From: Myxococcaceae bacterium
GTDB taxonomy: Bacteria > Myxococcota > Myxococcia > Myxococcales > Myxococcaceae
Length of the DNA: 41,246 nt
Direction: 5' to 3'
Assembly (NCBI GenBank): GCA_017881265.1
Contig: JADGRA010000031.1
Coordinates: forward strand, 1 to 41,246
The stretch's first letter is position 1. Each line of letters opens with the position of its first letter. The notes under the pieces are model-generated. The model saw only the letters and a list, made by a program, of their open reading frames with translations, did no database searches and had not been told where the DNA came from. A program made the translations under genes and the position numbers. Of this stretch, positions 30,311 through 35,462 are shown one piece after another.

Positions 30311-31189
30311 ATGGCTTCCAGCGTCCGTCCTCGCCTTTTGGTGGTTGGCCTGGGGCGGCTGGGCGGAGCGCTGGCCACGCAGCTGCAGGCCGCCGGCTGG
30401 CACGTGCGCGTGCGCACGCGCTCGCCCTCCGGGCGGCGGACGGCCAAGGCCTTGCACCTGCGCGAGGCCAGTGACGCCGAGACGCGCGCCGCCCAGCTGT
30501 GCTTCCTCACCGTCCCGGACTCGGCCGTGCCCAGCGTAGCGGCCTCGGTGGCCACCCTGCTGTCGCCCTCCGCCGCCCTGGTGCACTGCGCCGGGGCGCT
30601 GACGCTGGACGTGCTGCACGCGGCCGCGGCGGGACGCGCCACCGGCTCCTTCCACCCGCTGGTGGCCGTCTCCGGTGCGGACACGCCCCTGTCCGGTCAC
30701 GCCGTGGCGGTGGCCACGCGCTCGCGCTGGCTGGCCCCCCAGCTGGTCGCGGTGGCGCGGGCCCTGGGGCTGTCCCCCTTGCGCATTCCGGAGTCGGGGC
30801 GCGCCGCCTACCACGCCGGCGCGGCGCTGGCCGCCGGCGGCCTGGTGGCCCTCCTCGACGCCGCGGTGGCCACCTGGGCTGCGGGCGGCATTGAAAGACG
30901 TGCCGCCGAACGGGCGCTGTTGCCCCTCATGCGCTCGGCCCTGGGCGGCGTCCAGCAGCGGGGGCTTCTTCTGGGGATGACGGGCCCGGTGGTGCGGGGC
31001 GACACGGCAGTGGTGGAGGTCCACCTGGCCGCCCTGCCGCCGGACGTGTTGCCGCTGTACCGCCAGCTGTTCGGCCGTGCCCTGGAGCGACTTGCCCCGG
31101 ACCTACCGCGGCCCTCGGCGCTGCGGCTGCGCGTCTTGCTGGGGCCGGTGCGCCAGCGCCGGCGGCGCCCGCCGGCCAGCCGCCGCTAG
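30311..31189 (+). CDS. Rossmann-like / DUF2520 protein (putative NAD(P)-dependent oxidoreductase)
   Basis: A 292-residue protein. The N-terminus carries a dinucleotide-binding turn VVGLGRLGGALA (GxGxxG, residues 13-18). TVPDSAV, VHCAGAL and SFHPLVAVS are conserved in the Rossmann-like plus DUF2520 family, which is related to pyrroline-5-carboxylate reductase and 6-phosphogluconate dehydrogenase. The C-terminal DUF2520 region is helical and starts near ESGRAAYHAGAALAAGG. It lies 24 bases after the Clp-like gene and is probably co-transcribed. Its stop codon shares the CTAG palindrome with the convergent neighbour. The substrate is unknown. Confidence 0.85.
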   Translation: MASSVRPRLLVVGLGRLGGALATQLQAAGWHVRVRTRSPSGRRTAKALHLREASDAETRAAQLCFLTVPDSAVPSVAASVATLLSPSAALVHCAGALTLDVLHAAAAGRATGSFHPLVAVSGADTPLSGHAVAVATRSRWLAPQLVAVARALGLSPLRIPESGRAAYHAGAALAAGGLVALLDAAVATWAAGGIERRAAERALLPLMRSALGGVQQRGLLLGMTGPVVRGDTAVVEVHLAALPPDVLPLYRQLFGRALERLAPDLPRPSALRLRVLLGPVRQRRRRPPASRR

Positions 31190-32484
31190 GGCGCGAGAAT
31201 AATCCGCGGGCCCTGCAGCGCCTGGCGCACGGCGCCCAGGGCACCGTCACTCAGGGCCTCGGCTTCCGTCAACCGGCGCATGGCCAGGGTGCTGTCGCCG
31301 GCGGCCGCCGTCAGCAGCGTCTTGCATTCCCCCAGCAGCGCCAGGGCCGCCTCCTCCATCTGCTTGCCAGGGGCGGAGGCCTGGACGGGCTTGCCGGCCT
31401 TCTCGGACAGGTAGGTGGTGAAGCGGCCCAGCGCGTCGGCCAGGGCGCGCACGTCCAAAGCCTGCAACAGCCGCCGCAGCGTCTCCGCCGGGACGGTGAG
31501 AAGGCGCGGCATCCCGGTGCGGCCGAGTCCCGGGTGCAGAAGGCCCACCTGGTCGACCTCGAAGACGCCTAGCACGCCGTCCTCGGGCGGGGCCGGCTGC
31601 CGGTAGGGCACCGTGTCGAGGAAAAGAAGCAATGGGTCCGCCCCCTGCTGGGCGGCGCGCACCTCCTCGGCATCCAGCGGCGGGAAGCCGTCCGGCACGC
31701 CGATGAAGAGGAGGGGGAAGACGGCGTCCTCCCAGAACTCATCCGGGGCAGAGCCGGTCCGTTGCGTCGCGGCGAAGAGGTCCACCAGCAACTCCCCCAG
31801 CCGGGGGGCCTGCGCCAGCTGCTCGCCCAGCGACTTGGCCGGGTCCAGCCGGCCGAGGGCGCCCACCAGCTGCTGCTCAAGCTGCGTCCGCGACTCAGGG
31901 GCAAGGCGGCCGCCTGCCCGGGTCAGCGCTTCCCGCAGGTCGCGCGCCAGCTTGTCCGGCCGGGCGGCCCACAACTCCTCCAGGCGACGCTTGTCCAGGG
32001 AGAGGAACTGCAGGAAGGACGGGTCGAAGAGGCGGGCGTAGTCCGCCGGCGACAAGCGCACCGGCCCGCCGGCGGTGGGGGCAAAGCGTGCCTCGGCCAG
32101 CGCCCGGCGCACGTCCTTGGCCACCTCGTCCAGTCGCGCCAGCTGGGCACGCCGGAGGGCGTCGGTGACGGCGGTGAAGGGCGACAGCATGAGCAGCGCT
32201 TCGGGGAAGCCCACCATGGCCCCCTCGGGCGACTCCCGCATGGGGAACCAGAAGGCCTTGTCCGAGTCGGCCAGCCGCTGGCCAAACGCCGCCGCCAGGC
32301 CCAGCGCCACCAGCTGGTGCTCCGGGCGGTCGGGGACATAGGGGCCCTGCAGCAGCTTGATGACGCCCGCCTCCATCTCCGGCCAGGTCGCCTGAAGAGG
32401 GTCCACCGGCTTGCCCTCCACCTGGGCGAGCGAGGCCGCCAGCTGCGCGAGGGCTGCGTCGAGGTGCGAGGGAGGACGGGCCAT
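31186..32484 (-). CDS. Conserved-looking hypothetical protein
   Basis: A 432-residue soluble protein rich in Leu, Ala and Arg, with no signal peptide, membrane segment or motif I recognise. It is mainly helical with some hydrophobic strands (AVFPLLFIGVPDGFPPLD; ADPLLLFLDTVPYRQ). I chose the ATG at 32484 (MARPPSHLDAAL) because the open-frame extension to 32535 runs over the start of the divergent lipoprotein gene. The two start codons are only 44 bases apart, so their promoters must overlap or lie inside coding sequence. Its stop codon overlaps that of the DUF2520 gene. Confidence 0.7.
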   Translation of the reverse strand: MARPPSHLDAALAQLAASLAQVEGKPVDPLQATWPEMEAGVIKLLQGPYVPDRPEHQLVALGLAAAFGQRLADSDKAFWFPMRESPEGAMVGFPEALLMLSPFTAVTDALRRAQLARLDEVAKDVRRALAEARFAPTAGGPVRLSPADYARLFDPSFLQFLSLDKRRLEELWAARPDKLARDLREALTRAGGRLAPESRTQLEQQLVGALGRLDPAKSLGEQLAQAPRLGELLVDLFAATQRTGSAPDEFWEDAVFPLLFIGVPDGFPPLDAEEVRAAQQGADPLLLFLDTVPYRQPAPPEDGVLGVFEVDQVGLLHPGLGRTGMPRLLTVPAETLRRLLQALDVRALADALGRFTTYLSEKAGKPVQASAPGKQMEEAALALLGECKTLLTAAAGDSTLAMRRLTEAEALSDGALGAVRQALQGPRIILAP

Positions 32485-32518
32485 GAGTCGGCTCAATAGC
32501 GTAGAACAGAGTCCACGT

Positions 32519-32522
32519 GGAG
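32519..32522 (+). promoter_or_regulatory. Ribosome binding site choosing the lipoprotein start
   Basis: GGAG lies six bases before the GTG at 32529. The earlier in-frame GTG at 32517 overlaps this site, so 32529 is preferred. Confidence 0.55.
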
Positions 32523-32528
32523 ACGGGC

Positions 32529-35462
32529 GTGTCACGCCACAGGCCAGCGTCCGGGCGCGCCGCGGGGTGCCTCCTGGCGGCGGTGCTTGCCTCCGGGTGC
32601 GCCACCCTCAACCCCCGCTTCACCCCGGCCGTCACCGCCTCCTTCGCCCACCAGGAGGTGCGCAAGCTGCAGACGCCGTCGCTCGAGCTCTACTACCCGG
32701 CCGCCCGGCGGGGGGAGGCGCTGCGGGTGGCGCAGCGGCTGGAGACGTGCCTCGCCCAGCTGCGCAGCCTGACGCTGGCCAAGGAGTCGCGCGCGCGCCT
32801 CGTCGTCTACCTGACAACGGCCAACTTCGACAACGCCTACGTCCAGCCTCCCTTCGTCGGGCTGCCACCGCAGATGGTGCTCGCCAGCCACATGACGCTG
32901 GAGCTGTTTGACCTCTTCGACTTCGGCACCAACGGCATTCCGGACATTGCCTGCCATGAGGCCGTCCACTACGTGCAGTTTCAGCAGAACGATGAGTTGT
33001 GGTGGCTGGTGGACGTCGCCTTGGGCGACGTCTACTCGGCCAACTTCCTCCCGGAGAGCTGGTTCCTGGAAGGGCTCGCCACCTTCTATGAAGGCCGGTT
33101 GGACAAGCATGTCGGCCGGCCGCACAGCCCGCTGTGGCATGGCCTCTTCGAATCCATCATCGCCCTGCGCGGCGGCAACCTGGAGCCGGGCGACCTCATC
33201 CTCACCAACCGGGAATTCCTGCCGGTGGGCGCCAACTACCTGACCGGCGAGTACTTCGTGAAGTGGCTGGCCCGCACCTACGGGGAGGAGAAGCTGTGGC
33301 AATTCGTCGACCTCCAAGGCCACAGCTGGCTGTCGCCGCTGGGCGTCACCTTGCGCTTCAAGGCCATCTACGGCCTCAGCATCGGCGCGCTCCTCGCCGA
33401 GTACGTGAAGGAACTTGCCCGCACCACAAAGCCGCGCCAGCGCCCGGATAACCAGCACGTGTTGGACGCGTCCTTGGGCTACTTCGCGCGCGCCACCACG
33501 TCGGCGGACGGCCGGGTGGCAGTGGTGCTGGCCGGGCTGGACGCGGTGGCACGGCTGCGCATTCGCGGTCCCGACGGGCAGCTGCTGTTGGACCGTCCGC
33601 TGGCCCAGCTCCTTCCCGGGCGGCCCTACATCGCCACCAATCCGCTCGACATGAGCGGGCTGTCCTTCTCCCCCGACGGCCGGCGGCTGTACCTGGTGCT
33701 CTCCGACGTGGCGGAGGACGGCACCAGTACCCCGCGCCTTCTGGAACTGGACAGCGCCACCGGCACCCTGGTGCGGACCTGGGACAGCCTGGAAGGCCTC
33801 GGCGGCGGCCTCACCCCGGACGGGCGCAGCTACCTGTACGTCGAAAGCCGGGGAGACACGGCCAACCTGGTCCGCCTGGACTTGGACAGTGGCACGCGGA
33901 CGCCCCTCACCCACTTCACCGGTAACGTCACGCTGTCCGGACCGCGCGCCTCGCCGGACGGGAAAACCGTGGCCTATTCCCGCCGCAGCGACAGCGGCTT
34001 CGACGTGTGGCTCCTCTTTGCCGACGGCACCACCCGGGCCCTCACCACCGACGGCCGCTTCAACTACGACGCCCGCTGGCTGGACGCGACGACGCTGGTG
34101 GCACTCCGGGAAGTGGAGGGGCGCGCCCAGGTGGCCCGCATCGACACGCGCACCGGTGCGCTGGACGTCGTGACGGACGTCCCCTACGGCGCGCTCGACC
34201 CGGCGCCGCTGCCGGATGGGCGCCTCACCCTCGTCAACCGCGACGGGTACGGGTGGACGCTGGACACGGTGACGCTGCCGCCACGGCCCTCGCCGCTTCC
34301 CGCCAGCGCCGGGGACGAAGGGCCCGAGCCTGTGCTGCCGCTGCTGCCCCAGCCCCCGCCGCCGCCCGGGGAGTTGCTGCTGGCGCAAGACACGCCGGCG
34401 CCCGCCCTGGAGGACTTCTGGGTGCCCAACTTCCGGACGCCCTTCATCGCCTTTTCCACCCGCACCACCGCCAACGGAGGCACGGAATTCCTTCCCGTCG
34501 TCGGCGTCTCGGTGCAGGGCGTGGACCGGCTCGGGCAGCACGCCTACGCCATCAACCTCCTCTATGAGGAGCACGACCCGGGACCGAGCTTCAGCATTGG
34601 CTACGGCAACTACCAGCTGGCGCCTCTGTCCCTGACGCTGGTGGGCGCGCGGGCCGCGGCGCCGGGCGTGGTGGACTACAGCCTGACCCTCGCGGCGCAC
34701 GAGACGTTCTGGACGACGCCCGTCACGCTGAGTTTTCTCCTGCTGCGCAGAGACGAGTCGACCGGCACGGGCACGCTGCATGCCAACCTCGGGGGGCCTG
34801 GGCTGTCCGCGCTGTGGGAGGCGACCGAGAACACGCCCTACGGCGGCGTCCGCCTCGGCCTTCTGCTGGCGGGCGGGGCGGCCTACTACCCGCTGGGCAC
34901 CTTCCACTTCGGGGACGTCGGGGCCACCGTGGGCGGCTGGCTTCCCCTGCCCTGGTATTACCGCGACAACCTCTTCCTCTCCGTGCGTGGCCGCGCCCTG
35001 CCCGGCGCGCCCGCCCGCCTCCTCGAGGTGGGGGGCACCGCGGGCGGCTACTATGAATGGCACACCGGGGGCACCTACGGCCAAGCCGGCCCGGGCCTGG
35101 CCGTCTTCCCCGACATCTCTTTCGTCGAGCCACTGCGCGGCTATGCGGACGCCACCCTGCGCTGCGACAGCTCCCTCATCGCCGGCCTCAACTACCAATT
35201 CCCCTTCATCATCGACCGCGGCTGGGCCTCGGTGCTGTGGGTGCTGCCGTCGCTCTTCCTCCGGCAGGTCGACCTGCAGGCGTTTGGCAACGTCGCGTGG
35301 ACGCACGACATCGGCTGGACCACTCACCGGGTGGTGGGCGGGGCGGTGTTGCTACGCACCACCTTCGGTGGGGCCCTGGCGCTGTCCTTCTACTACCAGT
35401 TCGCCTGGCGCTTCGACGACGGCCTGGGCGCCCTCAACACGTTCGGCATCGCCCTGGAGTGA
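32529..35462 (+). CDS. Lipoprotein with HExxH metalloprotease domain, PD40 propeller and probable outer-membrane barrel
   Basis: A 977-residue protein. A lipoprotein signal ends at LASGC (Cys24). Residues about 45-300 contain CHEAVHYVQ, a zinc-binding HExxH (His143, Glu144, His147), and WFLEGLATFYEG about 34 residues on, whose Glu181 would be the third ligand of a gluzincin. Residues about 315-585 are a PD40/TolB-like propeller with repeated SPDGRRLYL, TPDGRSYLY and SPDGKTVAYS. A Pro-rich linker (about 585-625) leads to roughly 330 residues of alternating hydrophobic/polar strands ending in aromatic strands (ALSFYYQFAWRF), like an outer-membrane barrel. Predicted location is the outer membrane. 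Peptidase activity, topology and partners are inferred. Confidence 0.85.
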   Translation: MSRHRPASGRAAGCLLAAVLASGCATLNPRFTPAVTASFAHQEVRKLQTPSLELYYPAARRGEALRVAQRLETCLAQLRSLTLAKESRARLVVYLTTANFDNAYVQPPFVGLPPQMVLASHMTLELFDLFDFGTNGIPDIACHEAVHYVQFQQNDELWWLVDVALGDVYSANFLPESWFLEGLATFYEGRLDKHVGRPHSPLWHGLFESIIALRGGNLEPGDLILTNREFLPVGANYLTGEYFVKWLARTYGEEKLWQFVDLQGHSWLSPLGVTLRFKAIYGLSIGALLAEYVKELARTTKPRQRPDNQHVLDASLGYFARATTSADGRVAVVLAGLDAVARLRIRGPDGQLLLDRPLAQLLPGRPYIATNPLDMSGLSFSPDGRRLYLVLSDVAEDGTSTPRLLELDSATGTLVRTWDSLEGLGGGLTPDGRSYLYVESRGDTANLVRLDLDSGTRTPLTHFTGNVTLSGPRASPDGKTVAYSRRSDSGFDVWLLFADGTTRALTTDGRFNYDARWLDATTLVALREVEGRAQVARIDTRTGALDVVTDVPYGALDPAPLPDGRLTLVNRDGYGWTLDTVTLPPRPSPLPASAGDEGPEPVLPLLPQPPPPPGELLLAQDTPAPALEDFWVPNFRTPFIAFSTRTTANGGTEFLPVVGVSVQGVDRLGQHAYAINLLYEEHDPGPSFSIGYGNYQLAPLSLTLVGARAAAPGVVDYSLTLAAHETFWTTPVTLSFLLLRRDESTGTGTLHANLGGPGLSALWEATENTPYGGVRLGLLLAGGAAYYPLGTFHFGDVGATVGGWLPLPWYYRDNLFLSVRGRALPGAPARLLEVGGTAGGYYEWHTGGTYGQAGPGLAVFPDISFVEPLRGYADATLRCDSSLIAGLNYQFPFIIDRGWASVLWVLPSLFLRQVDLQAFGNVAWTHDIGWTTHRVVGGAVLLRTTFGGALALSFYYQFAWRFDDGLGALNTFGIALE

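Follow-up and report, generated by a model that had tools for sequence, protein, structure and literature searches.

The gene at positions 32529 to 35462 on the forward strand of the window (the whole 41,246-nucleotide stretch of Myxococcaceae DNA analysed here) encodes a predicted lipoprotein of 977 residues. A gluzincin-type peptidase domain, a six-bladed TolB-like propeller and an Omp85-type barrel are predicted to follow one another in this single chain. On the strength of sequence comparisons and structure models, the protein is tentatively interpreted, at somewhat less than even confidence, as an outer-membrane-bound, periplasm-facing metallopeptidase carried by its own Omp85-type barrel, which would serve the processing or quality control of envelope proteins.

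Domain organization

The open reading frame (ORF) is uninterrupted and starts with GTG; a start at the alternative GTG codon at 32517 would lengthen the N-terminus by four residues. Residues are numbered in the 977-residue protein and positions in the whole window. The parts of the gene are as follows:

32529..35462, forward strand: whole gene, predicted lipoprotein combining gluzincin-type peptidase, TolB-like propeller and Omp85-type barrel, 977 residues
32529..32600, forward strand: signal peptide and lipobox, with Cys24 predicted to be lipidated
32601..33446, forward strand: gluzincin-type (Peptidase MA-like) domain, residues 25-306
32955..32969, forward strand: HEAVH, residues 143-147, the HExxH zinc motif
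33069..33071, forward strand: Glu181 within WFLEGLA, the predicted third zinc ligand
33447..34289, forward strand: six-bladed TolB-like propeller, residues 307-587
34290..34430, forward strand: linker and barrel entry, residues 588-634
34431..35456, forward strand: predicted 16-strand outer-membrane barrel of Omp85 type, residues 635-976
35133..35144, forward strand: LRGY, residues 869-872, in loop 6 between strands 11 and 12

A reading made from the letters of the stretch alone (the sequence-only reading) had placed a lipid-anchored N-terminus, a zinc HExxH protease-like domain, a six- or seven-bladed propeller and a probable barrel in one chain. The single chain is borne out by the open frame and by relatives that align along nearly its whole length, and such whole-chain relatives in many genomes rule out a fusion created by an assembly error. 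The lipid anchor stands as a predicted lipobox, the protease-like domain has kept its motif in its relatives and has a metallopeptidase fold in the model, and the blades of the propeller can be set at six. The barrel, too, is upheld by the model, and its Omp85-type identity, which had not been named before, can be added.

The sole Pfam family found on the protein is PD40, with one repeat at residues 458-494 (expectation value (E) 2.7e-7), and nothing in Pfam matches the C-terminal third. Among the NCBIfam models, those of TolB fall far under their cut-offs, and a lasso peptide isopeptidase model matches weakly in the propeller region. Since both collections gave propeller-type matches only, the peptidase and the barrel were identified with the help of sequence profiles and structure models. 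The AlphaFold2 model of the full chain, calculated from alignment A2 (45 rows), has a predicted local distance difference test score (pLDDT) of 90.0 and a predicted template modelling score (pTM) of 0.90. The pLDDT falls below 50 at residues 1-7, 591-607, 839-847 and 852-858.

The peptidase domain

Conservation was counted over 70 aligned rows, namely the window protein and 69 locus proteins. His143, Glu144, His147, Glu181, Gly182, Glu188 and Tyr237 are each present in 69 of the rows, the single gap belonging to L080, which lacks this part of the protein. Residues 178-189 of the window protein, which surround Glu181, read WFLEGLATFYEG. The gluzincin signature, an HExxH motif with a downstream Glu ligand, is matched by His143, Glu144, His147 and Glu181, and the conservation of the site extends to sequences as distant as 19% identity. 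The predicted zinc site is, as far as sequence can tell, complete, of the gluzincin type and under selection. Loss of Glu181 in relatives, which the sequence-only reading had named as a finding that would count against it, was looked for, and the residue is kept in 69/69 rows covering it. A dead peptidase is rejected, the site being complete in all of these rows.

The peptidase domain was also modelled on its own from alignment A3 (34 rows; pLDDT 85.7, pTM 0.87). Its nearest fold is that of the M30 peptidase lugdulysin (Z 14.9, root mean square deviation (rmsd) 4.0, 232 residues aligned), followed by bacterial collagenases of family M9 (Z 11.8-14.3) and M1-kind aminopeptidases (Z of about 12). 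Foldseek returned the same kinds of metallopeptidases and others, but its E-values are modest, starting at 1.8e-4, and the list is headed by a chain of the TFIID complex, which presumably has an M1-like fold. By sequence, Peptidase_MA_2 (PF13485) is matched weakly by 17 of the 45 A2 members at E 1 (best 6.9e-5), and one distant relative, L197, lies above the Pfam cut-off for this family. Matches of the peptidase profile to Protein Data Bank (PDB) sequences are weak, the best being an aminopeptidase at E 0.011. Membership of family M48, to which BepA belongs, is ruled out by the lack of any M48 match in the window protein at E 1.

The propeller and the linker

TolB-like proteins match the window protein by sequence at residues 379-582. 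In VIA-align, TolB structures align with the full model over 238-245 residues with Z 23.6-24.9 and rmsd 2.5-2.8 (1crz: Z 24.9, rmsd 2.5, 238 aligned), and TolB also tops the Foldseek list of the full model against the PDB (E 6e-12). The VIA-align list of the whole model is dominated by propellers and is uninformative on the barrel. TolB, Pizza6 and NHL propellers, all of which we take to be six-bladed, align along the propeller of the window protein; it is therefore regarded as six-bladed. The linker between propeller and barrel is poorly modelled at residues 591-607, and the length of the stretch 583-620 (window 34275-34388) ranges between 26 and 260 residues among the rows covering it, with the longest versions in Myxococcus species.

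The barrel

The DSSP assignment of the full-chain model gives 16 barrel strands between residues 635 and 976, a count taken from the strand list. Foldseek matched the full model to BamA (7tt2, E 7.9e-8) and TamA (8us1, E 2.8e-7; 4c00, E 3.2e-7). The sequence-only reading would also have been contradicted by a model lacking a closed barrel; the 16 strands and the matches to BamA and TamA speak for a barrel, whose closure between the first and last strands is presumed. In hhalign, the barrel columns of A2 were compared with the C-terminal 420 residues of 31 proteins that PF01103 had picked out in related genomes, mostly BamA-like by length; a script that filtered for a motif chose this set, and a few of its rows may be wrong frames. 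The two profiles align with a probability of 86.8% (E 4.3e-6, 319 columns), whereas all controls (eight column shuffles, the reversed profile, the propeller part and the peptidase part) reach at most 0.5%. Against solved structures, the barrel profile A4 has BamA as its best match (E 0.0014), and the next row stands at 0.51. Furthermore, several relatives of the same layout exceed the Pfam cut-off for Omp85 (PF01103), namely L099 (one of five), L097 and L182 (two of ten), and L204 and L205 (two of four), while L186, L206 and L207 have PF01103 matches under the cut-off.

Proteins of the Omp85 superfamily carry the motif [VIL]RG[FY] in loop 6. LRGY of the window protein (residues 869-872) lies between model strands 11 and 12, which is the place of that motif. 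Arg870 is present in 67 of the 70 rows (three gaps) and Gly871 in 66 (three gaps, one Ala). The spacing between GG835-836 and LRGY is 30-34 residues in the lipidated clade and 11-26 in the four most distant rows (L097-L100).

Because of the Foldseek matches to BamA and TamA, the hhalign score far above its controls and the relatives above the Pfam cut-off, the predicted barrel is assigned to the Omp85 type, to which BamA and TamA belong. Another kind of outer-membrane barrel is ruled out by the strand number and the Omp85 homology.

Such a barrel, with the conserved LRGY in loop 6, would also suit a protein that is first of all an assembly factor, with a BamA-like insertase barrel, a propeller acting as its internal BamB and a peptidase serving as chaperone or proofreader. 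WD40-Omp85 proteins have indeed been called reminiscent of a BamA-BamB fusion in the available text of the survey by Heinz and Lithgow (PMC4104836). This role is nevertheless unlikely, as no POTRA domain was matched in the window protein at E 1, the propeller standing in its place, and an insertion of 30-34 residues separates GG835-836 from LRGY in the lipidated clade. An Omp85 barrel may moreover lack a lateral gate, as PlpD shows according to the available part of the report on that protein (PMC11116518). We give just as little credence to a broader version, according to which the one chain would be an assembly-and-proofreading station that unites an Omp85 insertase, a BamB-like propeller and a BepA-like peptidase destroying uninserted clients. 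Such a station would be an old general device of several diderm lineages, to which the lipid tether was added in the window's clade.

Distribution and the lipid anchor

A search with the window protein in 193 related genomes (E 0.001) gave a match in 169 of them; the strong matches span nearly the whole chain, and the weak ones may represent the propeller alone. The 69 loci were found by a scan of a species collection with alignment A1 and are mostly from Myxococcota by title, Myxococcus and Corallococcus included. The farthest are titled 'Deltaproteobacteria' (L097 and L099), 'Gammaproteobacteria' (L098) and 'Bacillota' (L100); L097 belongs within the window's phylum, being the same place as G170.

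Of 195 genomes from the window's phylum, 167 have a match to the A3 peptidase profile at E 1e-10, in most cases a single one, and among the matches listed many frames have 940-1050 residues. Within the window's family the matching genomes give E-values under 1e-80, as do three genomes from other families; elsewhere, values between about 1e-36 and 1e-80 predominate. The gene is retained in genus g21, whose genomes (G020, G033 and G040) measure 2.1-2.7 Mb. The genomes G005, G021 and G059, which belong to the window's own family, gave no match to the profile. Two genomes, G036 (C1) and G051 (C9 and C18), contain two full-length copies each, compared with the usual single match. Two genomes of genus g8 carry the gene as a pair of adjoining frames (G043:C89:61115-64011 and G050:C1:7726748-7729635), which would represent sequencing error or decay.

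The sequence-only reading had proposed a search for the same architecture in other phyla. Relatives do occur in two further phyla, although the barrel is clear in some of the members only. The peptidase profile matches 17 of 299 genomes in the phylum of L098, a 'Gammaproteobacteria' metagenome-assembled genome (MAG), and 18 of 199 in that of L100, a 'Bacillota' MAG, the genomes of L098 and L100 included. From 20 of these 35 genomes, 10 per phylum, 20 ORFs were fetched, and every one has HExxH. The A4 barrel profile matches 12 of the 20 (L182-L191, L193 and L195), that is 10/10 in the Gammaproteobacteria-type phylum and 2/10 in the 'Bacillota' phylum. L192 and L201 from the latter have [LI]RGY near the end and no match to the barrel profile, and L194 has this pattern only at positions that do not fit. 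Six ORFs fetched from the window's phylum all have both HExxH and LRGY, a result due in part to their selection for Omp85 and peptidase hits in one frame.

A tree was calculated from 89 of 90 peptidase-domain rows. It came with a long-branch warning and is used here only for its well supported Myxococcota clade, in which 65 Myxococcota-type rows, those with a lipobox among them, group together (100/100). Two records have positions at odds with their titles: L057, titled 'Comamonas', groups inside Myxococcus, and L092, titled 'Proteobacteria', inside a Cystobacterineae group. Both are perhaps mislabelled or mixed assemblies.

The N-terminus of the 977-residue protein has a basic stretch, a hydrophobic stretch and then the lipobox LASG, followed by Cys24. 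This Cys is present in 64 of the 70 rows. Two of the others, L075 and L080, are missing the N-terminus; in the remaining four (L097-L100, the most distant rows) the start resembles a signal peptide but has no Cys at the lipobox position. As all lipobox rows fall inside one Myxococcota-type clade, the lipid anchor is probably an addition made within that clade to a layout that is more widespread. Cys74 (64/70 rows) and Cys142 (65/70), both absent from L097-L100, may form a disulfide within the lipidated clade.

Predicted topology and proposed function

The lipobox and the predicted barrel together imply that the protein would be tethered at both ends, as the sequence-only reading had it for the case of a real barrel; for the protease that reading had allowed either the periplasm or the cell surface. 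The peptidase and the propeller most likely reside in the periplasm, because both ends of an even-stranded Omp85-type barrel lie there and the periplasmic side is the default for an outer-membrane lipoprotein. In the proposed mechanism, the chain would be exported by the Sec system, lipidated at Cys24 and retained at the outer membrane, where the barrel would insert with both termini in the periplasm. The lipid and the barrel would then hold the peptidase and the propeller at the inner face of the membrane. The propeller might dock a client or a partner, and the zinc site might trim or degrade proteins of the envelope, the likeliest substrates being outer-membrane proteins or lipoproteins that are unfolded or stalled in assembly. 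The role would resemble the one BepA has at the BAM complex, except that the peptidase would be fixed to its own barrel.

A different topology, in which the barrel would pass the peptidase and the propeller to the cell surface, would make the protein a surface or secreted protease for prey or nutrition. Its relatives include Myxococcus and Corallococcus, both of which are known predators. Relatives are found as well in the phyla of the 'Gammaproteobacteria' and 'Bacillota' MAGs and in genomes of 2.1-2.7 Mb, which speaks against a predation tool. Some Omp85/TpsB barrels do translocate protein (PMC4104836, in the available text). The soluble part to be moved here, however, amounts to about 560 residues including a folded propeller, and the enzyme domain of PlpD proved to be periplasmic (PMC11116518, in the available text). 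A surface protease is therefore regarded as quite improbable.

Processing or quality control of envelope proteins from the periplasmic side is favoured because of the spread of the protein through the phylum, its retention in small genomes and two precedents. PlpD, an Omp85 protein once thought to export its enzyme domain, keeps that domain in the periplasm (PMC11116518), and BepA is a separate zinc peptidase of Escherichia coli acting on an outer-membrane protein at BamA (PMC8423444), as the accessible portions of the two papers have it. The phylum-wide spread and the retention in genomes of 2.1-2.7 Mb suggest envelope maintenance, a general rather than a niche role.

Several observations weigh against this interpretation. 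The window protein has no match to Omp85 or to Peptidase_MA in Pfam at E 1, and only 1 of the 45 A2 members matches Omp85 at that threshold. The Foldseek match to BamA, computed with the whole chain aligned, covers 407 columns with an rmsd of 9.7 and a template modelling score of 0.35 by target length. The hhalign alignment pairs GG835-836 with the Omp85 GG, but it does not pair LRGY, about 33 residues later, with the Omp85 RGY. Five ORFs of the 'Bacillota' phylum (L196-L200) have neither a match to the barrel profile nor the loop motif. The absence of the lipobox in the four distant members (L097-L100) means that the double tether is not essential to this kind of protein. Finally, seven neighbouring ORFs were scanned with Pfam, and none of them was named as a BAM subunit.

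Neighbouring genes

One gene outside the lipoprotein gene accompanies it more often than any other that was traced:

31186..32535, reverse strand: divergent neighbour, 449 residues, no Pfam family (no match at E 1)

It was found by tblastn in 46 of the 69 loci, even where the other traced neighbours were unseen (e.g. L041-L048, L052, L073 and L092). Its start as listed overlaps the lipoprotein gene by 7 bases, and translation may really begin at an in-frame ATG that lies further inside. Neighbours of the DUF2520, Clp-like (by eye), NadD-like and NamZ kinds each occur in 26-28 of the 69 loci.

These data bear on whether the protein is a dedicated maturation protease with one or a few defined clients, whose propeller would read a signal and whose barrel would serve only as an anchor. 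The mostly single match per genome, a propeller suited to docking and the strongly conserved active site are consistent with such an enzyme. However, no constant client gene or system was found among the nine traced neighbours, the most constant of which is confined to the 46 loci and has no Pfam family, and the wide spread of the protein favours a general set of clients. A dedicated enzyme is thus a possible but rather doubtful alternative to general processing or quality control.

Comparison with known systems

The propeller of the window protein resembles that of TolB, with six blades and Z 23.6-24.9. TolB has neither a peptidase nor a barrel, and its N-terminal domain is different from that of the window protein. 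Propellers of this kind are also known in combination with barrels. Heinz and Lithgow (2014) defined the Omp85 superfamily by its barrel and distinguished ten subfamilies, those without POTRA domains included, one of which, WD40-Omp85, has a TolB-like propeller and no known function, in the available text of their survey (PMC4104836). The metalloprotease and WD40-like Omp85 subfamilies are named as not well characterised in the corresponding part of a second paper (PMC11116518). WD40-Omp85 proteins are the closest group described so far: like the window protein, they have the TolB-like propeller N-terminal to the Omp85 barrel and no POTRA domain, whereas the available description, compared by text and not by member lists, mentions neither a peptidase domain nor a lipid anchor (PMC4104836). 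No description of the peptidase-propeller-Omp85 layout was found in the open-licence literature searched, and a term search of two papers dealing with the outer-membrane and vesicle proteins of Myxococcus gave no result. The window protein can be described as a propeller-Omp85 protein that also has a conserved gluzincin domain and, within a single clade, a predicted lipid anchor, a combination that seems to be new.

The family PF00149, which we take to be the calcineurin-like phosphoesterases and not a protease family, has no match in the window protein at E 1; an HExxH..E site is present instead. PF00149 is carried by the Omp85 'Metallo' subfamily, which is like the window protein in having a metal-dependent enzyme domain ahead of the barrel, according to the available text of the survey (PMC4104836). 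The 'metalloprotease' label of that subfamily may mislead, given the identity assumed for PF00149. With PF00149 understood in this way, a true protease-Omp85 protein seems to be undescribed in the available text of the survey.

PlpD and FplA, like the window protein, unite an enzyme domain and an Omp85 barrel in one chain, and the enzyme domain of PlpD is periplasmic; PlpD differs in having a lipase-type domain and POTRA in the place of peptidase and propeller (PMC11116518, in the available text). The accessible part of the report on BepA describes a zinc metallopeptidase whose target, an outer-membrane protein, is handled at an Omp85 protein. The window protein would be a predicted counterpart, but BepA is a separate M48 peptidase, whereas the peptidase and the barrel of the window protein form one chain (PMC8423444). 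A conserved protease site on a propeller-Omp85 protein gives that group a testable biochemical role. The Omp85 barrel, the propeller and the zinc peptidase, which are separate proteins at the outer membrane of E. coli, are covalently joined in the window protein, and such a single chain, in which the ratio of the parts is fixed, could be used as a model system for outer-membrane proofreading.

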